Assembly: GCF_034092465.1 (NCBI RefSeq)
Contig: NZ_CP139303.1
Span: 620,001 to 684,000 of the forward strand
Reading direction: 5' to 3'
Length of the DNA: 64,000 nt
DNA from: Prochlorococcus sp. MIT 1223
Lineage (GTDB): Bacteria; Cyanobacteriota; Cyanobacteriia; PCC-6307; Cyanobiaceae
In this document: piece by piece, positions 49,736 through 63,264 of the stretch
Position numbering within the stretch: the first letter of the stretch is position 1
Layout of the letters: each line of letters starts with the position of its first letter
Notes under the pieces: model-generated
Told to the model about the DNA's origin: nothing
What the model saw: only the letters and a program-made list of their open reading frames with translations
Databases searched by the model: none
Program-made: the position numbers and the translations under genes

Positions 49736-50701
49736 ATGAATGATGAAAATAGTTCTAATTCAATATGTCCTAAAATTAAATGGGAAAAGTATGGGTTAAT
49801 AGCTCACCCCCCTAATACAACATATTGGACAAAGACTCATTGTATGGTACCTACTCCAAGTAATCAAACAAATGAAAGTATAGATATCCTATTTGCTAGC
49901 AGAGATAACCTGAACAGGTCAACAATCGGATTTTTTAAATTTAAATTTAATGAACCATTTAGAAAATTAAAATTAGAAAGTAAGGATCCACTTTTAAAAC
50001 CAGGAAGATTAGGCTCATTTGATGACAATGGAGTTTTACCATCTTCAAGTATTATTATTAAAAACAAAGAGTTTCTTTATTATATTGGATTTAAGCCAGG
50101 GGGAACAACAAGAATGGATCTTTTTGGAGGACTTGCAATTAAAAATGATATCGGAAACAACTATACTAGGTATTCAGAATCTCCAATTCTAGAGAGGAAT
50201 AAGATCAATCCTTTCATTAATACTGCTCCATGGGTAATAAGACATAAAAATCAATTTTACATGTACTATGTGTCTGGAATAGAGTGGGTTAGTAAAGATA
50301 TTCCTAGATATAATATTCAAATAACTACTTCAATAGATGGAATAAATTGGAATAGAAAAAAGAAATTAGTAGCAATAGATTTAATTCATGGAGAAGATGC
50401 ACTGGCAAGACCTTATGTTTTTTATGATCGAGAGTTTAAAGTATTTAGGATGTGGTTCTCTGCTAAAGGTAGAGGTTTAACATATAAAAATTATAGAATT
50501 TGCTATGCGGAGTCTCTGGATGGTTTTAACTGGAAAAGAAAAGAAGTATTAGATGAAGAAAATTTTAAATCATTAATGGGAATTGATGATGAAATCTGCT
50601 GCTATCCTATAATTATAAAAAATAGAAATAAGTATTATATGTTTTACAATGGAAATAACTATGGCAAAGATGGTCTTCTTTTAGCGATTGGGCAAGAATA
50701 G
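49736..50701 (+). CDS. Five-bladed beta-propeller protein (GH43/GH32-like)
   Basis: A 321-residue protein from the ATG at 49736, a base after the preceding stop; an earlier in-frame start would overlap the acyltransferase gene. Repeated blade-like segments (TAPWVIRHKNQFYMYYVSG, ARPYVFYDREFKVFRMWFSA, CYPIIIKNRNKYYMFYNG) follow the pattern of arabinanase/invertase-type propellers, with acidic residues at blade starts. No signal peptide is present, so it is cytosolic. The coupling to a NeuD-like gene suggests a glycan-related role, perhaps a sugar-binding or transferase activity rather than hydrolysis. Confidence 0.68.
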   Translation: MNDENSSNSICPKIKWEKYGLIAHPPNTTYWTKTHCMVPTPSNQTNESIDILFASRDNLNRSTIGFFKFKFNEPFRKLKLESKDPLLKPGRLGSFDDNGVLPSSSIIIKNKEFLYYIGFKPGGTTRMDLFGGLAIKNDIGNNYTRYSESPILERNKINPFINTAPWVIRHKNQFYMYYVSGIEWVSKDIPRYNIQITTSIDGINWNRKKKLVAIDLIHGEDALARPYVFYDREFKVFRMWFSAKGRGLTYKNYRICYAESLDGFNWKRKEVLDEENFKSLMGIDDEICCYPIIIKNRNKYYMFYNGNNYGKDGLLLAIGQE

Positions 50702-50895
50702 TTCCAATATGTTAATTGCTCCTAATGGGCAATATTGCGTGCGATTACATAGAGCTCCAAAGATATAATAATCTACAAGTAACTTAAATAACCAGAGATT
50801 ATGAAAATATAAATTGGTAAATATAGATAAGGCTGCCAAATAAACAATTCATTTAAATTCCTGGCTATAAGAATAGATACCTGTAACTGAAAAAG

Positions 50896-51723
50896 CTAAG
50901 AGTGCAAAACGTCAAAACCCTCTAATTTACTTTTAGTGACATTTTTGAATATGACTGATCTGCAGATTGGCAGTCTTGACTCAAAAGTTAAACTACCTGA
51001 ATAACCATCTAATCTTAAGCTTTCAGTACCAAGAGAATTTATTTGCATTTTTTTATTTCTTTCTGGTTCATTATTAAATAATATTCGTATTTTTATCTCT
51101 GAAGGAGTTGGATTATTAAACACTAAGTCATAAGTATTTTGAGATTCAAATCTATAAGCAGGGGAATAAAGATGTAAAGTTCTTGTTCTAGCAAGCAATT
51201 TACCATTCCTTGAGATCGATCCAAAGTTACCATGAATAGATGATCCCACAGATGAGGAGAGGTTCGGATAATAAATGCAATAACCTCTATTCTGTTCACA
51301 GACTAAATTATTAATTTGGAACTTTTCTTTTACTAGATCATAAAGACTGTTTTTGGATTCGACGTAGTGAATAAATGAGCTGTAAGATGAAGAGTTTGGA
51401 GGTCCACTTAATATTATTCGACTGAAAAAATCATCGCTAGTATATTTCTCCTCCCAAAGGAAATCACCTTTCTCTGAGAAAAATTTAAAACAATGAGTAA
51501 CCTTTTCTCTGCTTCCTAATAATAATGCCCTAATATTTTCAGCAATGAACTCAGTTTTTGCAATATAAGGGTTCCACGCAAAGAAATCTGAAATACTACT
51601 TGGGAGAACTATAGAACTTTTTAGGCTGTAGGGGGCAGATGCTCGATTATAAATATTAGAAATCAAACCTAAAGCAGGGACTGGGAGAATCTGTTTAATA
51701 AAAGCCTTGAGGTTTATAGCCAT
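50896..51723 (-). CDS. Hypothetical protein, beta-rich, surface-glycan context
   Basis: 275 residues, no recognised family. The N-terminal 30 residues are mildly hydrophobic and basic. The rest is rich in beta-strand-like, Ser- and Asn-rich stretches (SSSVGSSIHGNFGSISRNG, NNPTPSEIKIRILFNNEPE). The ATG overlaps the last 10 bases of the gene upstream on the same strand, so the pair is translationally linked, and both follow an FkbM methyltransferase gene. It ends the three-gene minus-strand operon. Confidence 0.6.
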   Translation of the reverse strand: MAINLKAFIKQILPVPALGLISNIYNRASAPYSLKSSIVLPSSISDFFAWNPYIAKTEFIAENIRALLLGSREKVTHCFKFFSEKGDFLWEEKYTSDDFFSRIILSGPPNSSSYSSFIHYVESKNSLYDLVKEKFQINNLVCEQNRGYCIYYPNLSSSVGSSIHGNFGSISRNGKLLARTRTLHLYSPAYRFESQNTYDLVFNNPTPSEIKIRILFNNEPERNKKMQINSLGTESLRLDGYSGSLTFESRLPICRSVIFKNVTKSKLEGFDVLHS

Positions 51724-52559
51724 CTTTTCTTCAATAGCTTAACTATGCTATTCCTTTCCCTACCCCATAGTAATTCACTTGGAGGGTGAGTATGCTCAAG
51801 AGATAGTTGATTGTTTTTGACATCTACACTCAAAAATACGGGAATAAATGTACAGCTTTTGCATTGAATGAACAATATTTCATAGATTTTTTCTGATCCT
51901 AAGGCATTATTTATATCTTTAAGATTTAAAATTGTAAAGCTATTTTGGCGAGCTTTCCAATGCAAAATGTTATCTTTTTTATTAGGGTTATAAATCTCCA
52001 AATCAACTTCTGATTGTTTTTCTGAATCGCGATTTAAATTCATAAGTACTAAAAAACTTTCGGTATTTTCATGCTTGTAAAACCTCTCTTTTAGAGCATC
52101 GAAAGACCAAAAGCTACCTTTATTGAAATTAGACATAACACATGGATATTCTCCTTGAAATGAAGTTGTTGCTCCTCTGAAATGGTAGTTAAGAGATACT
52201 CTCTCAGCTACTGGGGATGAATCAACACGCAATGAGTCTGGTTTAGGCAGATATCGAGCTGATTTTGGGAAAGAATTCTCATATCTAACAAGGGAAATAA
52301 CCATTTGATCTGGTAATGCCTTTATAGAATTGCGTTCAATATCACAAAATGCTCCATATTTACACTCTTTAATTGAAATTAACTCCCAATTTTCCGCTTG
52401 AAGCTTATATGTTCCTATATATGTTGATCTAGCCTGGACTTTCGATTGATTTGCTTCTCTTAAATTATTAGGAAGATTCAATAATGTTGTTGAAGAGTCA
52501 ATTCTTTTATCGAGTGCATTTGATGTTATTGAGGGGAGCAGTGGGAAATATGATGACAT
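51714..52559 (-). CDS. Hypothetical protein paired with an FkbM methyltransferase
   Basis: 281 residues from the ATG at 52559. That start has AGGA about nine bases upstream and begins one base after the methyltransferase stop; a longer frame from 52658 would overlap that gene by 98 bases. The protein has no known domain. It is mixed alpha/beta with a C-terminal LEHTHPPSELLWGRERNS that looks like a conserved motif. It resembles the following gene product in general composition and in its strand-rich second half (FLVLMNLNRDS, EVDLEIYNPNKKD), so a distant relation is possible. Confidence 0.6.
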   Translation of the reverse strand: MSSYFPLLPSITSNALDKRIDSSTTLLNLPNNLREANQSKVQARSTYIGTYKLQAENWELISIKECKYGAFCDIERNSIKALPDQMVISLVRYENSFPKSARYLPKPDSLRVDSSPVAERVSLNYHFRGATTSFQGEYPCVMSNFNKGSFWSFDALKERFYKHENTESFLVLMNLNRDSEKQSEVDLEIYNPNKKDNILHWKARQNSFTILNLKDINNALGSEKIYEILFIQCKSCTFIPVFLSVDVKNNQLSLEHTHPPSELLWGRERNSIVKLLKKRWL

Positions 52560-52560
52560 C

Positions 52561-53403
52561 TCACTTCCTAAAGATATGGTTGTAAGTAGTTGAGAATTTT
52601 GAGTCGTCACATAATGCTGAGTGTGTTTTTTTGACAAGGTTAAATCCGCAGTCTTCAATCATTAATATTGAGGACTGATAATCTGATCTTGTTTCGTCTA
52701 ACTCAATCAGCAATGACTTAAATGTTCCCATCATCAATGTTTTACTTGCTCCTCTCAAGATGCGGTTTTCATTTCCGTCGACATCAATTTTTATATGATT
52801 AACATTAGGAGCTAATTCTGAGATGCAATTGTCAAGCGTGTCTCCAAAGCAACCTTGGGAATAAGCAGGTTTGAAAACATTTTCAAACTGGTCTTCCTGA
52901 TTATCAAAACTACTTAATGCTCCTCCCCATTGCATCTTTTGTAAGTTTAATTCAGAGAAGCCTTTTTTATCATGTAAAGCTATCAAAAAAGCTTTTACTA
53001 AGTTTCCAAGTTTATTTATTCTGATGTTCATATTTAATAGTGCAAAATTGAGGGCATCAGGCTCAATACAGATTGTTTGAATGCCTTTGGTAGCTGCATA
53101 CAAGCTATAAATCCCAATATTTGCTCCTATATCAAGAAAAATATCTTCACTATCGAATGAGTCTATCCAATCAATAGTTTCAGGCTCTTTGAACAAAAAG
53201 CTAGAAGCTCTAAATCTACAAATCTCTCCATAATCATAGATTTCGAAAAGTTTACGATTATCTTTACTCAAAACAGCTTTCGTTTTTGATAGACGTTTAT
53301 CTGTAACTCTTGCCCATTTTCTTTTAAGCCTGCCAATTATTTTACTAATAAGAACATTTGGCATTAGTAAATTATTCAAAGGAAACCTTTTACTACTTAC
53401 CAT
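52561..53403 (-). CDS. FkbM-family methyltransferase
   Basis: A 280-residue SAM-dependent methyltransferase. Motif I is IFLDIGANIGIYSLYAA near residue 88, then ICIEPDALNFALLNMNI near 112-128 and HIKIDVDGNENRILRGA near 203-219, all FkbM signatures. FkbM proteins methylate oxygens of sugars or macrolides. It is the first gene of a minus-strand operon with two unknown proteins. In this context it could O-methylate a surface sugar or the glyceroyl group; which one is not known. Confidence 0.85.
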   Translation of the reverse strand: MVSSKRFPLNNLLMPNVLISKIIGRLKRKWARVTDKRLSKTKAVLSKDNRKLFEIYDYGEICRFRASSFLFKEPETIDWIDSFDSEDIFLDIGANIGIYSLYAATKGIQTICIEPDALNFALLNMNIRINKLGNLVKAFLIALHDKKGFSELNLQKMQWGGALSSFDNQEDQFENVFKPAYSQGCFGDTLDNCISELAPNVNHIKIDVDGNENRILRGASKTLMMGTFKSLLIELDETRSDYQSSILMIEDCGFNLVKKTHSALCDDSKFSTTYNHIFRK

Positions 53404-53735
53404 TTAAAATATTTATTAGAATAAAAATTAGCGCAGAATCGCTATAGAGTCGACATATCTTTGCAATGAGATGGTCATATTTTAACTATTGGTTTAGCTT
53501 CCGGGAGAACTTCAACCAGTAAATATAGTAATGAGCTGGGTTAATGTACCTAAAAAAGAAAGGATCTGTACTGCAAGGGGCAATGATCCGATAGCTATTT
53601 AAAGGTACCTGACATTTTTAAATCCCCAACATAATTTTTGATCTATAAAACTAACTCTTAGAAAATTAAGTTTTAAAATCTAAATTCCTCTGCAAATTTG
53701 CATTAACTATAATTGTTATAGAGATCATTCAAAAG
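53404..53735. other. Divergent intergenic region, promoter of the repeat protein
   Basis: 332 bases. Apart from the palindrome and -10 box at 53691-53713, no gene or repeat was seen. Confidence 0.5.
53691..53713 (+). promoter_or_regulatory. Palindrome next to a -10 box upstream of the repeat protein
   Basis: TGCAAATTTGCA (53691-53702) is a perfect 12-base palindrome. The consensus -10 box TATAAT (53708-53713) follows six bases later and lies 22 bases before the ATG at 53736. No good -35 box is visible, so a regulator bound at the palindrome may be needed. Confidence 0.5.
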
Positions 53736-54098
53736 ATGAATTTCAAAGCATTAGTTGGATCAGTTGCTCTTGCAGCCTTGTCAGCTCTCACATTGCCTGT
53801 TGCAAAAGCAGATTATTTTGTAAGTCCTGGAAATAGTTATACCAATATCGGAGGAACCACTTATGGCTCTGATGGTTCCACCCAAACAAGAATTGGTGGC
53901 ACCACTTATCACAGCAATGGAAATAGTTATACCAATATTGGAGGTACCACTTATGGCTCTGATGGTTCAAGTTATACAACTATTGGAGGAACAACTTATG
54001 GTTCCGATGGTTCGTCGTCTACCAAAATTGGCGGGACAACTTATTTCAGCGATGGGACAAGCTGTTCAACTATAGGCGGAACTACTTATTGCAATTAG
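53736..54098 (+). CDS. Small secreted protein of 15-residue repeats (IGGTTY)
   Basis: A 120-residue protein. Residues 1-25 are a signal peptide (MNFKALVGSVALAALSALTL, cleavage near VAKA-D). Residues about 33-120 are five 15-residue repeats plus a shortened sixth, each with IGGTTY-x-S-(D/N)-G near its end and T, S and N around it. The even Gly/Thr/Ser spacing suggests a beta-solenoid or extended fibre. The repeats are also visible at the DNA level (45 bases per unit). Two Cys occur only in the last unit. It is probably an exported or periplasmic small protein. Function unknown. Confidence 0.82.
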   Translation: MNFKALVGSVALAALSALTLPVAKADYFVSPGNSYTNIGGTTYGSDGSTQTRIGGTTYHSNGNSYTNIGGTTYGSDGSSYTTIGGTTYGSDGSSSTKIGGTTYFSDGTSCSTIGGTTYCN

Positions 54099-54106
54099 CT
54101 ATTTCA

Positions 54107-54153
54107 ACGGAGAGGGTGTCCTTAGAACAAGTTCAGTATGACCAGTCCTGAAC
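54107..54153. repeat. Direct repeat left of the DUF805 gene
   Basis: ACGGAGAGGGTGTCC (54107-54121) is identical to 55231-55245. Farther right, GACCAGT and CCTGAAC also recur in the same order with slightly different spacing. The copies lie on either side of the DUF805 gene, about 1.1 kb apart. Confidence 0.6.
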
Positions 54154-54232
54154 GTCTATGAACAGTTGTTTTCAGATTCCTTGAATAAAACCTGAACATA
54201 AACCAGAAAAATATTTTCTCAGGCGGAAGAAT

Positions 54233-55003
54233 CTATACTTTTTTATCTGATTCTTTCGTAAACAATAAAAGCATGGGGATCAAATTTAAATATGGAATAA
54301 TCAGGAAAAATACCAAATAAAAGGATTTATTTATATCCCTAAGTCTTCTTATTGAAAGTGATAGATATGCAATCAATGCTCCCAGAATATAAAGCGAACT
54401 TAATGCACTAAATCCCTTATTTACAAAACCAGAAAAATAAATTAGTGATGGTATTCCAACCATATTTGATAGCACTATAGGTATAAAACCTAAGAAAAAT
54501 AAACAAAAATAAATTAAGGTTGATATTAATAGAAAAGACCAGAATTCCTTCCTTTTAGATATTCCTTTGAAATCAAATGCGCGCTTCCAAGAGATAGAAA
54601 ATGAATCTATTATCTCATTAAATTTAATGTGATTTATAATCTGTCCATCGCTACCTCTTAGTGATGGTTTTATAACCCAATATAAATTAATTAGGGGACC
54701 TAGAGGAATCAAGTCTAGTAGGATCCAATATCCTGACCTTCCCATATCACGAAGTCTGCGGACCCCTAAAGATGTTTTTGGAAAAATTCGAGCAATCCAA
54801 TATATAACACCTATTATCAATAAAGAAGTTGCAAATATATTACCTTTTTCTGAGATTGCTAATGAACCAGTAAAGAGACCTAAGACCAATATAAAAAGCA
54901 TGACTTCCGCTAAAACAAAATACCAAAAATTCTTTCTGCTTGTAACACCTTTATAATCAAATGAATCTCTCCATCCTGAGATGAATGAAATAAGTATATC
55001 CAT
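54233..55003 (-). CDS. Membrane protein with two DUF805 domains
   Basis: A 256-residue integral membrane protein made of two related halves. Each half starts with a D-(Y/F)-K-G-(V/I)-(T/S)-(S/K)-R-K-x-F-W motif (near residues 16-27 and 143-154), contains two to four hydrophobic helices and has an R-R-L-R-D-(M/I) motif near its middle (84-89 and 218-223). This is the DUF805 pattern, normally one domain of about 120 residues, so an internal duplication is apparent. The function of DUF805 is unknown. The gene is bracketed by short direct repeats. Confidence 0.82.
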   Translation of the reverse strand: MDILISFISGWRDSFDYKGVTSRKNFWYFVLAEVMLFILVLGLFTGSLAISEKGNIFATSLLIIGVIYWIARIFPKTSLGVRRLRDMGRSGYWILLDLIPLGPLINLYWVIKPSLRGSDGQIINHIKFNEIIDSFSISWKRAFDFKGISKRKEFWSFLLISTLIYFCLFFLGFIPIVLSNMVGIPSLIYFSGFVNKGFSALSSLYILGALIAYLSLSIRRLRDINKSFYLVFFLIIPYLNLIPMLLLFTKESDKKV

Positions 55004-55375
55004 AAATTAAAAGTAACACTAACTACCAGTATTAATTCTAACTCTGAAATCTTCTAGAAAAGAAATTAACTTCATCCAGAAAACTTGTCGTAACTATCCA
55101 GAACACCTAATTTCATATTCTGAACTGTCCTGAATACTTCTGGATTAGTCTTTCCTATAAAAACCTCTTTGTTAGGAGCATTTTTAGGGTCACCATGACT
55201 ACTCAGGATTATTCCTGATCATTTGAAAATACGGAGAGGGTGTCCGTTGAGTTAGGTCCTAGAGACCAGTGGTGATCACGCCTGAACAACTCTTTTAAGC
55301 AAAACGAAGAAATATCCCCATCACATCCCCATCACATTTTTAGGTTTGCAAGCAGCTCTGTCTACTTGATGGCAA
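55004..55375. other. Intergenic region with the second direct repeat
   Basis: 372 bases between two minus-strand genes. It contains the repeat at 55231-55285 and a short tandem CCCCATCACAT (near 55317-55338). No gene was seen. Confidence 0.5.
55231..55285. repeat. Direct repeat right of the DUF805 gene
   Basis: The second copy of ACGGAGAGGGTGTCC (55231-55245), with GACCAGT (55262-55268) and CCTGAAC (55279-55285) following in the same order as at 54107-54153. Similarity outside these blocks is weak, so the copies are old or the shared parts are under selection. Confidence 0.6.
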
Positions 55376-58300
55376 TCATTCACAATGCTCTTTCAACAAT
55401 TTAATTGATTCTTCGAATTCTAATTCTGCTGATTTTTTCCAGTCCTTGCAGGCACCCGTAAGGTCTCCCAATGCCTTCTTACATTTACCTGATTTACAAA
55501 GGTAAATACGCTTCCAATGAGAAAAACCTAGCTCTATGAGTTGATTGTAATCACTAATTGCACCATTAAAATCCTCTAGAAGTTCCTTTATTTCAGCTCG
55601 ATTACTTATTTCTGATTCTTCAAATTCGTCAGATTCTGAGATCTTATTATCAACCTCTTTATAGGCAATCATCAGGTCAGAATTAGCTCCTTCTATATCT
55701 CCTGCGGCTTTTTTATAGCGACCACGCTGTATATAAAGATCTACATCAAGATAATCTGAAGAATCATCAATTTCTTCATTCAATAGGTCAATTGCTTTTT
55801 GATATTCTCCTAGATGGTAATGATCTGAGGCAGCATCGATCATTAAAGAAGGGAATATTGCTTCAGGATCAATTTCATATGCTTTATATGTGTCTGACAA
55901 TGATCCTTTGAAATCATTAGCTTCTCTTCTGCACTCTGCACGTCTCGAATATGCATTATGCATTGATTCATCTAATTCTATTGCTTTATCTAGATACTTA
56001 ATTGCTTTGCTATATTCTAATTCTTCTGCATAAATCTCTCCTATAGATGCCATCGCAGTAGCATTTTCAGGCTGTATCTCTATTACTTTTTTAAAGTCAT
56101 TAATCGCATTCTCGGAGTCATCATAATAAACTGTCAAACCTCTATTCAAGTAAGGGTCAGGATTGCTTGGATCAATCTCTATTGACTTACTCCAGTATTT
56201 AATAGCATTTTCATCATCATTTAAAGAATCATATACATTTCCTAGATCAAAATAAGTTTTTGCATTATTTGGATCTACTTCAAGAGATTTTAGATAATCA
56301 TCCTTCGCTCCTTCATAATCTTCTTCTAAATCATATTTTTTCTCTGCTCTATTCTTATAGAAACCTGCACTTGCCAAGACACCCTCTGAACGACATTCCT
56401 TATCAATTAATTGATCAGCATTGTTATTACCCAATTCGGATGCTTTCTTCCAACAAGAGCAAGCACCTTTTAAATCTGAAGAGCGAAACTTTATACTTCC
56501 TATATTTTGATGAGCATTAGATAAATTTGGATTTAATTCAATTGTTGTTTCAAAATCTAAAAGTGCTCCAACTTCGTCACCTGAGTCTCTTCTGGCAACA
56601 CCTCGATTATAGTAAGCATCACAATATTTGGGATCAATTTCCAATGCTAGGGTGTAGTCCTCCATAGCAGAATTAGGGTCACCAGTTAAATCCTTGCAAT
56701 TACCTCTATTAACATATAAGGAAGCCAAATCCTTATCTTTTTTATTAAGTTCTATTGCTTTGTTATAATCATAGAGAGCTCCCAAATAATGTCCAGAATT
56801 GCATCTACTATTAGCTCGGCAAGAATAATCTTCATAATCATTTAGAATTATTTCGTTCCTATCTTTTAATAAATCCCCTAATAATTCTCTGGGGTAGATA
56901 GCTCTCTCATATCTAATATCTGACGAATCTCCACCTTCATTGATAAGATCAACGATTATATTCTTTTCCTTATTGTAAGGGTCAATATTCTTACCTTCTG
57001 GATCAATCTCAATAGCTTTTCTATAATCCTCAATAGCTCCTAATATATCTCCTGTATTTTGCCTTAATAAACCACGGTACCTATAGATATTAGATAATTT
57101 AGGGTTAATTTCCAGTGCTTTTGTATAGTCATTAATAGCATCTAATGGATCATAGTGCTCTTTTAGCAAGCCTCTTTGAACGTAATGCTCTGATGCCTGT
57201 GGTTCCTCATCAATCTTTTCTGTTTGATTATCAACTAGTATACCCATATTTTCATAACCACTTTTCAACCTAGTAATAGCTAATTCATACCCTAATCGAG
57301 CAGATATGATTAATTCCTCTCTTAAAATACTCCAAGGAGCAAGAATCTCAGTAAGTCTCTCTGCTCTTTGGAACTTATAACAAGACTGCCAATCTATTGC
57401 ATCTTTATGCTCTACATAAGATTTCTCTTGAGGGTCTAATTCTATGGCTTTATTGATATCATCCAAAGCTGCTTGATTATCATTCAAACGATATTTCGAT
57501 ATAGATCTTTTATAAAGTGTATAAGCTAACCAATTAGGTTTTATATTAGATTCTCCAAGTTTCTCGAGAAACAAATTGAAATCCATCAAAGCATAATAAT
57601 CTTTCTCAAGATTTAAATAACAGATTCCTCTTGATTGATAAACAGAAGCATTTCCATTATCTAAGTCTATATAGTTATTGAAACATTCTATTGCACCTAA
57701 ATCGTCATCTCCCGTTTTAATTATTCCTAAAATTCTATAAGCCTCTTTAGATCTTGGATTAATCTCTAATACTTTCTTTAAATCACTAATACACCCTTCT
57801 TCATCCTTTAAACGTAGCTTCGCAGAGGAACGCGAAAGATAAAGCTCGTCATTAGTTGGGTTGAGCTCTAGTGCCTTTGTGCAATCATCTATTACTACTT
57901 GATAATCAACTGATTCAGTTTCACTTCTGACAGAGTCTATTGAATTATTTTCATCGAAGGAATCTTTACTCTCACTAGTTGCTTCTTCTGTCTGAGAATA
58001 TTCTGCTAACAATTTAGTAGCCTCTTCACTCCCTAATTCTTCAGCTCTTTTTATATCTTTGATTCCTTCCTCATTGTCATTCAGTCCTAATTTTGCAATC
58101 CCTCTAGCGTAATAAGAATGAGCTGTTTGATCATCTACTTTTATATAGTCGTCAAGGTCAGAAATAGCTCCTTCGTAGTCTTCTGATGCAACCTTACAGA
58201 GACCTCTTCGGAAAGACACCAAAGGGACAGCCTTTTGCGCTAGTTCTAATGCCTTTGTGAAATCAGAGATAGCTGCATCATCTTCATCTCTATCACTCTT

Positions 58301-60067
58301 TACTAAACCTCGAGTTATATATGCAAGACAAATATCAGATTTAATGGTTAAAGCTTTCTCTGTAGCAGAGATCGCACCTTCTAAATCATCTAAATAATAT
58401 TTTGCATACCCAAGGCTTGCTATAGCCTCTGGATCTTCAGGGTTAAGGTCTATTGATTTATTAATATCAATAATTCCACCTTCGGGGTCGCCTGATTCAG
58501 TCTTATTGATGCCCAACAAAATATACGAGGCACTTAAGACTGGGTTTGGATCGATCTTTGTTGCATTAGTTAAGTCTGAAATAGAACCTACTAGGTCACC
58601 TGTTTCTGCTTTTGTTTTTCCAAGATTGAAATGTGCAACGGCAAGTTCTGGAAAGAGTTCAATTGCTTTTTCGAAATCTGCCATTGCATCTTCGAAATTG
58701 CCTAGATCTTTTTGGGCAAGACCGCGATTGTTATAAACACGAGCAAATGTTGGGTCTATCTCTAATGCTTTGTTGTAGTCCTTTAAAGCTTTCACTGCCT
58801 CACCTTTCGAGCTTTTCAAATCTCCACTTTTTTTATAGTCCTCAGCAGTTAGTTCTCCTTCGCAGTGTTCTTTCAATAATTCGGATGCTTCTTTAATCTC
58901 TTCTTCTCTATCTTCTTCAGATTCATATTTGCTTTTTTCGATATCAAGAACTTCCTGCCAATCCATACAAGCACCTTTCCTATCACCAATCTCTTTCTTG
59001 GCAAGACCTCTTTTTGTTTGTGCTTTTCTATTCCAAGGATTCATATCAAGTATTAGGTCATAGTCTTCAATTGCTTCTTTAAATAACTTTTGACGTAAAT
59101 ACAGTTCCGCTCTTTTCTGGTATGCATTACTTAAACCTAAAGTCGCTCCTTTTTGGGGATTAATATCAATAGCCTTTAGGTAGTCATTGATAGATGCTGA
59201 TATGTCTTCTAGGGAGTCTTCTCTCTCAGGATCTTCCCAAAGTCTTGCAGTAGCTCTGCGGTTGTATAAATCCCAGTCATCAGGGTCTATCTCCAAGGCT
59301 TTGGTTAAATCAGCAATAGCGCCTTCTTTATCATCTTCAGTGGATTTATCAAATGCCCTGTATTTATAGGCATCAATATTTTTAGGATCAATTTCAAGGG
59401 CTTTTGTAAAGTCTTCAATTGCTGCTACATATTCGTCTATTGCGTCCTTGCAATGACCTCTGTAAATGTAGTAATTAGGGTTACTAGGGTCATTTTCAAT
59501 TACTTGATCGTAATCAAGAATTGCACCTTGATAGTCGTCCGATAACCATTTTGCTCTAGCTCTCCTTATATAGTCCTTTTGCGATTCTGGTTCGATTTCA
59601 AGAATCTTATTTTGATCGATTAGATCTTCTGCTGTTGTCCCATACCAAGAATTGAATAGATCTTGATCTTGATCTTCATCTTCATATTTATTTTGTGCTG
59701 CCAAAGCCTGAACCAAGTAGTCATATTGACGAATATGAAAATTTGGAACAAATGAAAGAGCTTCTTGCTCATTAAGTCCAAAGCTTTTAAGAATAGAGTG
59801 AGTATTAGAGACGAGATAGGAATACAAGAGAATCAATCGGTCCTTCATTGCACCTTTAGAAGAGTCTTCGCCTTTGATTTGAGAGAGTTGTAGTTGAATA
59901 AAGCAATGAGTTGCTAACCATAAGAACCTTGTATCCCAATCATCTTCAATTATTTCTGCTTTAGAAAGGTCAACCCCAGTGGTTTTTTCCCAAGTTTTCG
60001 TATAAAACGCACACCAATCAAGCAACTTGCTTTTCGGATCTTCTTTTGTAGGATTTTTATCAATCAT
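55376..60067 (-). CDS. Giant tetratricopeptide-repeat protein (1563 residues)
   Basis: The largest gene of the window. After a 150-residue N-terminal domain without repeats (helical, with WLATHCFIQLQLSQIKGED near 50), the protein is almost wholly TPR units of 34 residues, such as GAILDYDQVIENDPSNPNYY and ALEIDPKNIDAYKYRAFDKS, roughly three dozen in all, in several blocks separated by acidic linkers. There is no signal peptide or membrane helix. TPR solenoids bind partner proteins. The ATG overlaps the stop of a smaller membrane-bound TPR gene (ATGA), so the two are made together and probably act as a complex. The partner is unknown. Confidence 0.85.
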   Translation of the reverse strand: MIDKNPTKEDPKSKLLDWCAFYTKTWEKTTGVDLSKAEIIEDDWDTRFLWLATHCFIQLQLSQIKGEDSSKGAMKDRLILLYSYLVSNTHSILKSFGLNEQEALSFVPNFHIRQYDYLVQALAAQNKYEDEDQDQDLFNSWYGTTAEDLIDQNKILEIEPESQKDYIRRARAKWLSDDYQGAILDYDQVIENDPSNPNYYIYRGHCKDAIDEYVAAIEDFTKALEIDPKNIDAYKYRAFDKSTEDDKEGAIADLTKALEIDPDDWDLYNRRATARLWEDPEREDSLEDISASINDYLKAIDINPQKGATLGLSNAYQKRAELYLRQKLFKEAIEDYDLILDMNPWNRKAQTKRGLAKKEIGDRKGACMDWQEVLDIEKSKYESEEDREEEIKEASELLKEHCEGELTAEDYKKSGDLKSSKGEAVKALKDYNKALEIDPTFARVYNNRGLAQKDLGNFEDAMADFEKAIELFPELAVAHFNLGKTKAETGDLVGSISDLTNATKIDPNPVLSASYILLGINKTESGDPEGGIIDINKSIDLNPEDPEAIASLGYAKYYLDDLEGAISATEKALTIKSDICLAYITRGLVKSDRDEDDAAISDFTKALELAQKAVPLVSFRRGLCKVASEDYEGAISDLDDYIKVDDQTAHSYYARGIAKLGLNDNEEGIKDIKRAEELGSEEATKLLAEYSQTEEATSESKDSFDENNSIDSVRSETESVDYQVVIDDCTKALELNPTNDELYLSRSSAKLRLKDEEGCISDLKKVLEINPRSKEAYRILGIIKTGDDDLGAIECFNNYIDLDNGNASVYQSRGICYLNLEKDYYALMDFNLFLEKLGESNIKPNWLAYTLYKRSISKYRLNDNQAALDDINKAIELDPQEKSYVEHKDAIDWQSCYKFQRAERLTEILAPWSILREELIISARLGYELAITRLKSGYENMGILVDNQTEKIDEEPQASEHYVQRGLLKEHYDPLDAINDYTKALEINPKLSNIYRYRGLLRQNTGDILGAIEDYRKAIEIDPEGKNIDPYNKEKNIIVDLINEGGDSSDIRYERAIYPRELLGDLLKDRNEIILNDYEDYSCRANSRCNSGHYLGALYDYNKAIELNKKDKDLASLYVNRGNCKDLTGDPNSAMEDYTLALEIDPKYCDAYYNRGVARRDSGDEVGALLDFETTIELNPNLSNAHQNIGSIKFRSSDLKGACSCWKKASELGNNNADQLIDKECRSEGVLASAGFYKNRAEKKYDLEEDYEGAKDDYLKSLEVDPNNAKTYFDLGNVYDSLNDDENAIKYWSKSIEIDPSNPDPYLNRGLTVYYDDSENAINDFKKVIEIQPENATAMASIGEIYAEELEYSKAIKYLDKAIELDESMHNAYSRRAECRREANDFKGSLSDTYKAYEIDPEAIFPSLMIDAASDHYHLGEYQKAIDLLNEEIDDSSDYLDVDLYIQRGRYKKAAGDIEGANSDLMIAYKEVDNKISESDEFEESEISNRAEIKELLEDFNGAISDYNQLIELGFSHWKRIYLCKSGKCKKALGDLTGACKDWKKSAELEFEESIKLLKEHCE

Positions 60068-61750: not shown

Positions 61751-61972
61751 ATGCACTCCACAGTCTCTGACTGGATGCCTGGACAGTATTTCGTTACTAT
61801 CAAAGACGTATCGAAGTTTCTAAATGTCTCCAGATCCACTATCACTAGAAAAGAACAGAAGAATCAGTTTCCGAGAAGACAACAGATCTTAGGGAAAAGG
61901 GTTGGGTACAAGAAGGAATACATCCTTCAGTTTGTTGAAGGCACCTGGTCTCCTGAAGGAGGCACGAAATGA
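61751..61972 (+). CDS. AlpA/excisionase-like HTH protein
   Basis: A 73-residue protein with a MerR/AlpA-type helix-turn-helix: VTIKDVSKFLNVSRSTITRK near residues 15-34, then FPRRQQILGKRVGYKKEYIL, the wing typical of AlpA/excisionase family members. These bind DNA and often control or aid integrase-mediated excision. It overlaps the recombinase gene by ATGA, forming a control-plus-recombinase operon. G+C content is visibly higher than in the island. Confidence 0.82.
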   Translation: MHSTVSDWMPGQYFVTIKDVSKFLNVSRSTITRKEQKNQFPRRQQILGKRVGYKKEYILQFVEGTWSPEGGTK

Positions 61973-63264
61973 CCCTCACCATCAGCAAAATCAACAGGAT
62001 AACTGTCAAAAGCAAGAGGCAAAAACATAGTGTTGCTGAAGGAAGTGCTCTCTACTTAGTTACTGAAAAATCCCCTTTGAATTGCAAAAGATTTGAAGGT
62101 GTTACCAGATACCCAAGAGGAAGGGCAGGGAAACTTCAGCACATACCTATGGGTGTCTATGGAAAGACAATCAGAACACCAAAGGATCTAGAACTAATGA
62201 TCCACAAATGGACTGAACTCAAAACTTGGTGTAAGGAGACAGGCAATTCACCACACTTATTCCTGAATAAAGAGGGGACCGAAGAACCGAAGTCAGAAAA
62301 AACCTTGGAGGAAGTCTTTCACTCCTTTTTGCGACTGCATAAGAAAAGAACAAAAGAAGTGACTTGGGTTACCAGCCAAAACAGATTGAATCAAATGCTG
62401 GACTTCTTCGGGAAGGACACTCCAATAGTGGATCTTGAATGGGACAACAACGGGAGGAAACGTGTAGTTGATATGGTCAGACTCATCGAGAACAGAGGTT
62501 CGCATGACCATGCAAGACGTTGTAGAAGACTTTTAAATAACGTCTTCACTCATGCAATAAAAGAACAGTGGATGAGAAGAGATCAGAACCCTGCCTCAGT
62601 TCCAGTAGAGGGAGAAGGAATAGATCACAAATACAAAGGGAATCCAAGTATTTCTTGGAATGAAGTCCCTGATTTGATGACTTCAATCAATGAAAACTCT
62701 TGCGATGGAACAAAACTCACTCGACTTGCAGTGAAGTTTTATTTGATGACTTGTATTCGTGTAAGTGCAATAGTTTCTCTCGAATGGGATTGGTTTGATG
62801 AGTCGAAAGATCAGTGGGTTCTTCCTCCACAGACCCCTGGACTCAAACGCAAACTGAAAACCACAACGAATGACTATGCACACATCATTCCTGCAACATC
62901 TGAAATTCATCTATTGATGGATGAACTCAGGAAGATGACTGGGTATCAGAAATACGTTTTTCTAAGTCCTGAAGGAAAGAAATATCCACACCTCTCACGA
63001 TCAACAATCAATACCTACTTACGTCGTCTTGGGTGGTTTAGGAAACTAACTGCACACGGGTGGAGACAAGTAGTTGCAACTGCAGGACAAGAAGAAGGTG
63101 ATTTCAAATTCGATGTGAAGGAGATCATCCGAAGACAGATAGGTCATACAGACAACAAGAAGGGGACTTTCGGTGCGTATGACAACACTCAATTCCTCAA
63201 GGAGAGAAGGGAGTTCTTGGAATGGTGGACTGAAGAATTAGTCAACCAAGGGTTAATCATCTAG
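61969..63264 (+). CDS. Tyrosine recombinase (integrase)
   Basis: A 431-residue integrase with an extra N-terminal DNA-binding region (1-110), a core-binding domain (about 115-210, including QNRLNQMLDFFGKD) and a catalytic domain. The catalytic residues are Arg264 in TCIRVSAIVSLEW, His363-x2-Arg366 in TAHGWRQ, His393 in RQIGHTD and nucleophile Tyr404 in FGAYDNTQ. All are present, so it should be active. P4/phage-type integrases of this layout insert DNA at tRNA genes. G+C content is higher than in the island. It probably moves the adjacent unit. Confidence 0.9.
   Translation: MTLTISKINRITVKSKRQKHSVAEGSALYLVTEKSPLNCKRFEGVTRYPRGRAGKLQHIPMGVYGKTIRTPKDLELMIHKWTELKTWCKETGNSPHLFLNKEGTEEPKSEKTLEEVFHSFLRLHKKRTKEVTWVTSQNRLNQMLDFFGKDTPIVDLEWDNNGRKRVVDMVRLIENRGSHDHARRCRRLLNNVFTHAIKEQWMRRDQNPASVPVEGEGIDHKYKGNPSISWNEVPDLMTSINENSCDGTKLTRLAVKFYLMTCIRVSAIVSLEWDWFDESKDQWVLPPQTPGLKRKLKTTTNDYAHIIPATSEIHLLMDELRKMTGYQKYVFLSPEGKKYPHLSRSTINTYLRRLGWFRKLTAHGWRQVVATAGQEEGDFKFDVKEIIRRQIGHTDNKKGTFGAYDNTQFLKERREFLEWWTEELVNQGLII

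Follow-up and report, generated by a model that had tools for sequence, protein, structure and literature searches.

The question raised by this locus is what is encoded by a short gene made largely of 15-residue repeats, how the number of its repeats is set, and what the protein might do for the genome that carries it. Our proposal, that the gene is mobile cargo for an exported, stapled, closed ring of six hairpins acting in the envelope as a binding module, stands as a whole about evenly between right and wrong, and its parts carry different weights, as given below.

The repeat gene and its upstream region

Within the window (the whole stretch of 64,000 nucleotides that was analyzed), an open reading frame at 53736-54098 on the forward strand encodes 120 amino acids that begin with a basic amino-terminus, a hydrophobic core and an AKA cleavage motif. 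Downstream of this signal-peptide-like segment (a predicted Sec signal peptide over residues 1-25, 53736-53810, with cleavage after AKA inferred heuristically) lie six IGGTTY motifs at a spacing of exactly 15 residues, in unit 1 (SYTNIGGTTYGSDGS, 53835-53879), unit 2 (TQTRIGGTTYHSNGN, 53880-53924), unit 3 (SYTNIGGTTYGSDGS, 53925-53969), unit 4 (SYTTIGGTTYGSDGS, 53970-54014), unit 5 (SSTKIGGTTYFSDGT, 54015-54059) and the capped carboxyl-terminal unit 6 (SCSTIGGTTYCN, 54060-54095), all on the forward strand. The protein ends in CSTIGGTTYCN-stop, with two cysteines at the extreme carboxyl-terminus (codons of Cys110 at 54063-54065 and of Cys119 at 54090-54092, forward strand). It fits the definition of the family described below (a signal peptide, IGxxT[YF] units and a terminal CxxIGxxT[YF]CN-stop), and the earlier description of IGGTTY units followed by a capped last unit with Cys behind a signal peptide is borne out. 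Tandem Repeats Finder scored the array at 148-260, and the carboxyl-terminal pattern matched once in the window and never in 100 dinucleotide shuffles, indicating that the repeats are not a product of chance. A signal-like amino-terminus was recognized by the heuristic in all 24 full-length members of the family and a lipobox in none, and the protein is very probably exported via Sec; the claim of a secreted 15-residue repeat protein thus holds for the repeats as observed and, for secretion, on features of the sequence.

The gene is single-copy in its own genome. Its G+C content is higher than that of the window (0.41 versus 0.32) because of its Gly and Thr content, GC3 being 0.26, and with GC3 this low we dropped a recent arrival of the gene as a reading of its G+C content.

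The initial annotation had placed the gene behind a palindromic operator next to a consensus -10. A 12-bp palindrome, TGCAAATTTGCA (53691-53702), and an exact TATAAT (53708-53713, forward strand; a possible -10 element with no -35 match) are indeed both present, but a role as operator is not supported. Perfect 12-bp palindromes occur at chance level in the window (32 observed, 31.4 expected), the probability that a first-order Markov copy of the intergenic region carries one is 0.19, and TGCAAATTTGCA is found at one place only in the 1.8-Mb genome, and therefore defines no regulon; a sigma-70 scan of 53400-54300 returned 0 complete promoters, with 3.1 expected in shuffles. Rfam searches of 50000-58000 and, leniently, of 53900-55500 gave nothing credible.

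Family distribution and unit number

The repeat protein belongs to an undescribed family that is wide but rare and patchy, and we hold the family and its six-unit anatomy to be almost certainly real. Relatives were sought with the window protein, and then with relatives and alignments as queries. At E up to 1e-3 the protein was found in its own genome alone, both among 99 related genomes and among 151 sampled genomes of the same taxonomic family; weak matches (E 0.003-0.8) in 18 of the 151 besides its own were not taken as relatives. A relative with the same design occurs in Candidatus Litorirhabdus and one lies on a prophage-like contig; others were found in 6 Dickeya jumbo phage records among 50,697, at 18 viral-contig loci, in 4 of 398 Pseudomonadota genomes (by sequence search) and in plasmids, with 13 of 72,556 records matching at E up to 0.01 (Variovorax, Phaeobacter and Enterobacterales; the 13 include two Salmonella records, and the one inspected, L028, has a different repeat and is excluded as a member). 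The DNA pattern of the terminal unit matched 3 of 398 Pseudomonadota genomes, G434 alone being a member. In the organism's own phylum the sequence searches matched 6 of 292 genomes, with two canonical members (its own genome and G419). The carriers are phages and prophages, plasmids, and chromosomes of gamma-, beta- and alphaproteobacteria, plus others in the own phylum. Among 60 relatives, the DUF805 gene that neighbors the repeat gene was found at E up to 1e-20 in one, its own genome, indicating that the region is accessory.

No fitting family was found in Pfam, NCBIfam or PADLOC (the last with no match for seven family members), and PHROGs gave weak partial matches, spanning one to two units, to families of unknown function (for example, phrog_25132 at E 6e-5). 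PDB sequence matches to 8pjs (E 0.005) and intimin 6tqd (E 0.002) look like low-complexity repeat similarity. In the literature searched we found no paper on the family, and the unit strings TTYGSDG, IGNTTY, IGGTTY and IGNSTF were without match.

We counted units with a leave-one-out profile scan, at strict and lenient thresholds, in 24 non-redundant full-length members, leaving out short forms and redundant contigs (for example, L039, L056, L059, L061, L063, L066, L067, L070, L071 and L029); for L046, L048, L072, L027 and L079 the unit numbers come from a count by eye. Exactly six units were found at the strict threshold in 18 of the 24, the kind of fixed number expected of a closed repeat beta ring. 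Five of the remaining six reach six units by eye or on the lenient count: L047 (five strict, six lenient), L069 (five strict, seven lenient, six by eye), L026 (none in the scan, six RTDSLGNTY units by eye), L073 (four strict, six by eye) and L078 (two strict, six by eye). The last, L074, has five or six (four at the strict threshold and, by eye, five, or six with a degenerate first unit included), and L002 has six at the strict threshold and seven at the lenient. The profile was built from six-unit proteins and might miss short ones, not longer ones. Since the repeat period ranges from 15 to 23 residues across full-length members, it is the unit number, not the length, that is conserved.

A search with the terminal-unit pattern only returned 14 stretches, nine of them members, and the unit numbers of these nine are two, three and six only: six in L038, L039, L042, L047 and L050, two in L043 and L044 (for L044, three peaks at the lenient threshold and two at the strict) and three in L046 and L048 (both by eye). 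Further short relatives are L085 with two units, L087 with two and an unrelated tail (by eye) and L072 with about three (by eye). These two- and three-unit relatives, and the single full-length member with five or six units, are points against a fixed six. Five of the short relatives (L043, L085, L046, L048 and L072) end in a Cys motif of the same kind and may, as oligomers, be counterparts of the six-unit protein.

Several matches were not counted as members: L037, L040, L041, L045 and L049 from the terminal-unit pattern; L086, L053, L054 and G245 (L082); and L027 from Pectobacterium, which is degenerate and lacks Cys. Three sequences from the own phylum (G241, G285 and G321; L079-L081) look like a divergent secreted form in which about five units are present and the terminal Cys pair is missing, and are likewise excluded.

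The original suggestion of a possible fibre at the cell surface that could gain or lose repeats from strain to strain by slippage can point to the DNA of the window units, which is 84-93% identical among units 1, 3 and 4 (93% between units 1 and 3). Against it are the constant number across phyla, the divergence of the units at synonymous sites (mean pS 0.58 among the six window units, and 0.49-0.90, with pN 0.08-0.36, among the internal units of 15 gapless members) and the equal match lengths within each retrieved set of close plasmids or phages (four Variovorax plasmids, five enterobacterial plasmids and six Dickeya phages), within which no differences in repeat number were seen. A variable-number tandem-repeat protein is recognized by a differing unit number and near-identical DNA units, and neither was found here; we regard the slippage fibre as barely credible. 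For the core IGGTTY codons of the window gene, pS is 0.57 and pN 0 (15 unit pairs), and pN/pS between proteins, for five pairs, is 0.18, 0.18, 0.18, 0.29 and 0.50. By these substitution patterns, the repeats are judged to be old and under purifying selection. Units are more similar within a protein (0.69) than between proteins (0.51 at the same index, 0.50 at different indices), which suggests homogenization or matched packing within a ring.

Predicted hairpins and putative ring closure

The chemistry of the units was examined over 90 aligned units from 15 members. Position 5 is Ile or Val in 90 of 90 and position 10 is Tyr or Phe in 90 of 90; Gly occupies position 6 in 89 of 90 and position 14 in 75 of 75. 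Strand alternation places the conserved Ile/Val and Tyr/Phe on one face, with Gly in both turns. Cysteines at positions 2 and 11 occur together (20 units) or not at all (70 units), never singly, and the pair is found in unit 6 of all 15 members, in unit 1 of five, and in none of 60 units at positions two to five in the array. We propose that the mature part would consist of six 15-residue beta-hairpins, each with a strand (xxx-I), a turn (G-x), a second strand (xT-Y) and a second turn (S-D/N-G), and that the Ile/Val and Tyr/Phe of each unit would together form a buried core.

AlphaFold2, run with 7 and with 14 sequences, predicts twelve strands in six hairpins, with a pLDDT of about 82 over the repeats and best-model pTM values of 0.52 and 0.59 (the 14-sequence model having pLDDT 82.4 and pTM 0.59; its five models range in confidence from 82.4 down to 51.9, and the models of both runs spread widely). 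The initial annotation, which asked for a structure prediction, had suggested a possible beta-solenoid or fibre; six beta hairpins are indeed predicted, so that beta structure is upheld and a solenoid or fibre drifting in length by slippage is not, and the model output does not discriminate closed from open arrangements. In the model, residues 110 and 119 lie in register (strands 109-113 and 116-119). Because the cysteines always occur as a pair and the model sets their positions opposite each other on adjoining strands, a Cys110-Cys119 disulfide is likely; opposed across the last hairpin in an oxidizing periplasm, the two would staple the carboxyl-terminal end.

Comparison with known structures gave no close relative. 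Foldseek found no similar solved structure at E 1e-3, and the VIA-align rows for solved structures all have Z below 8, with barrels mixed among open sheets and Rhs shells. The best row of the first model is the LURP-one/Tubby-like 1zxu (Z 7.5, rmsd 3.4, 96 residues, 6% identity), a twelve-strand barrel that is not listed for the second, better model; the LURP-one/Tubby-like barrel is not known to be built from six equal units. A predicted structure, A0A8S5LE51 from Podoviridae sp. ct4s49 (E 3e-5, TM 0.63, 35% identity), is probably a family member; its BFVD label, YfaZ, is unsupported, with no YfaZ Pfam match in 12 family sequences scanned. The curlin repeat model (curli/CsgA type) did not match the window protein at E up to 1. 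MORN/MORN_2 repeats and CPAP G-box sheets likewise repeat a short hairpin that has Gly at its turn and contains an aromatic residue, and leave weak Pfam and Foldseek echoes, but these lie below the Pfam cut-off (for MORN_2, PF07661, the window protein has no match and relative L047 scores 20.8 bits against a cut-off of 29.6), and the MORN/CPAP repeat number is not fixed. In known cases, MORN repeats and the CPAP G-box form open sheets and are cytosolic.

We propose that the six hairpins close on one another into a ring or barrel of twelve strands, which would leave the unit number unable to drift. We infer closure from the fixed count of units together with the one-sided hydrophobic face, and somewhat favor it. 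The stapled first and last hairpins would also suit an open form, either a beta-solenoid or a beta-sheet of one layer, which they would cap at its two ends and whose length would be fixed otherwise than by closure. Such an open form draws on the confinement of the Cys staples to units 1 and 6 and on low-scoring Foldseek PDB matches that include single-layer sheets (CPAP/TCP10 G-box); yet the model fails to superpose on the TCP10 sheets (rmsd 12-16, TM 0.2-0.25), an isolated sheet would leave its single hydrophobic face exposed, and the strict count of six in 18 of 24 members speaks for closure. We consider an open form unlikely, though deserving of some weight.

Among known closed folds, beta-propellers have blades of about 40 residues. 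The unit of the proposed ring would be a 15-residue hairpin in place of a four-stranded blade, and no sequence relation to propellers was found. The likeness is one of construction: in propellers freshly amplified from single blades (WRAP, WD40 type), a closed ring arises from one supersecondary unit and shorter chains can complete the ring as homo-oligomers (PMC6805158), a route that would suit the two- and three-unit relatives here. The most far-reaching form of our proposal is a new closed fold of six stapled 15-residue hairpins, locked at six across phyla, in which two- and three-hairpin relatives complete the ring as trimers and dimers and which phages and plasmids spread as an envelope exclusion or glycan-binding module; we put this forward tentatively.

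Mobile contexts and putative function

At the phage and viral loci, 20 neighbor proteins were scanned, chosen from the 18 listed loci (L022 and L059 are one contig). The gene has head-morphogenesis and scaffolding genes on either side in L056, adjoins a virion structural gene (phrog_684) in L022 and L060, has a terminase nearby in L057, is found between integrase and endolysin in L058, and has an integrase within about 2 kb in L061, L043 and L065. On plasmids L025, L026 and L029 a recombinase is adjacent or within two genes, and on L024 a transposase lies 1.9 kb away. Chromosomal members lie beside a terminase and DNA methylases (G645), beside a GmrSD/HNH gene (G419) and, in G769, within an exopolysaccharide cluster; two of the six, L002 (a RelA/SpoT gene nearby) and G756 (nothing recognized by eye), have no clear mobile gene. 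The window gene itself is 7.7-9.2 kb from genes for an AlpA-type regulator (61751-61972; PF05930, E 7e-6), at the integrase end of the island, and a tyrosine integrase (61969-63264; PF00589, E 4e-10, and PF22022), both on the forward strand. It is likely that the gene is mobile cargo, which would have passed between distant bacteria as an accessory on phages, plasmids and islands.

Other repeats were seen near the gene. A 15-bp direct repeat, ACGGAGAGGGTGTCC, stands at 54107-54121, 8 bp past the stop of the repeat gene, and at 55231-55245, beyond the DUF805 gene, with weaker similarity over about 70 bp; its 14-bp core, CGGAGAGGGTGTCC, occurs at these two genomic places only, even with one mismatch, and the two copies could be a scar left around the DUF805 gene by insertion or attachment. 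A perfect 11-bp tandem, ATCCCCATCAC (2.2 copies), lies at 55314-55337, and the reverse strand at 55376-60067 encodes a 1563-amino-acid protein with TPR-like repeats (by eye), with dispersed direct repeats in its DNA.

The phage loci bear on whether the protein is a minor virion protein captured by hosts. The positions in L022, L060 and L056 agree with this; the signal peptide in 24 of 24 members, the plasmid and chromosomal copies without structural genes and the differing positions between phages do not, and we consider it improbable. The passages of PMC6143709 found by keyword yielded no virion proteomics. Lower still, and quite doubtful, we place a secreted antibacterial or signaling factor, which a small, mobile protein with predicted export and a disulfide cap might resemble, but no recognized immunity or export partner is kept adjacent in the loci viewed.

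The family proteins have no recognized catalytic residues, and their position among mobile elements varies. Exported, stapled, rigid and mobile at changing positions, a protein of this kind looks like envelope cargo that binds something. We propose that it would act in the carrier's envelope as a binding module, which most plausibly would influence the adsorption of phages by hiding or modifying a receptor or glycan at the surface. Of the putative functions, phage exclusion and glycan binding are the most plausible, the former a tentative assignment and the latter slightly more tentative still. An accessory gene of phage genomes with an export signal is what one would look for in a phage-borne envelope exclusion factor, and the family resembles the superinfection-exclusion cargo SieA and Ltp in being small, envelope-directed and encoded by accessory phage genes; it differs in having no PADLOC match, no lipobox and weak partial PHROG matches only, and exclusion is putative. 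Cor is a further protein of this phage cargo class.

The window gene stands at the end of a glycan island that encodes two NeuB, a cytidylyltransferase, Polysacc_synt_2 and an ABC transporter. The island, at about 8838-45500, suggests by its two NeuB, cytidylyltransferase and Polysacc_synt_2 enzyme that a picocyanobacterium bears nonulosonic acids of the sialic or pseudaminic type. A secreted glycan-binding protein that partners the carrier's surface polysaccharide, with no part in phage exclusion, would accord with this location and with that of the G769 member, which has a flippase, two glycosyltransferases and a sugar-phosphate transferase around it. A glycan context is found in only two of the six chromosomal members, though, and at the phage and plasmid loci no glycan cluster was seen, the exception being L022, where an acyltransferase predicted by eye lies about 2.8 kb from the gene; glycan islands, moreover, are hotspots for unrelated cargo. 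We hold a dedicated glycan partner to be possible but improbable, and return to the envelope binding module as the reading that we propose.

If the proposal is correct, the protein would be a very small natural ring that arose from a single hairpin and whose closure sets the number of copies, and the half- and third-length relatives would directly test how symmetric folds arise from oligomers. The family is an unannotated one, of predicted export, that phages, plasmids and islands probably carry from phylum to phylum, and it is a candidate for envelope-level conflict between phage and host, here beside a picocyanobacterial surface-glycan island.
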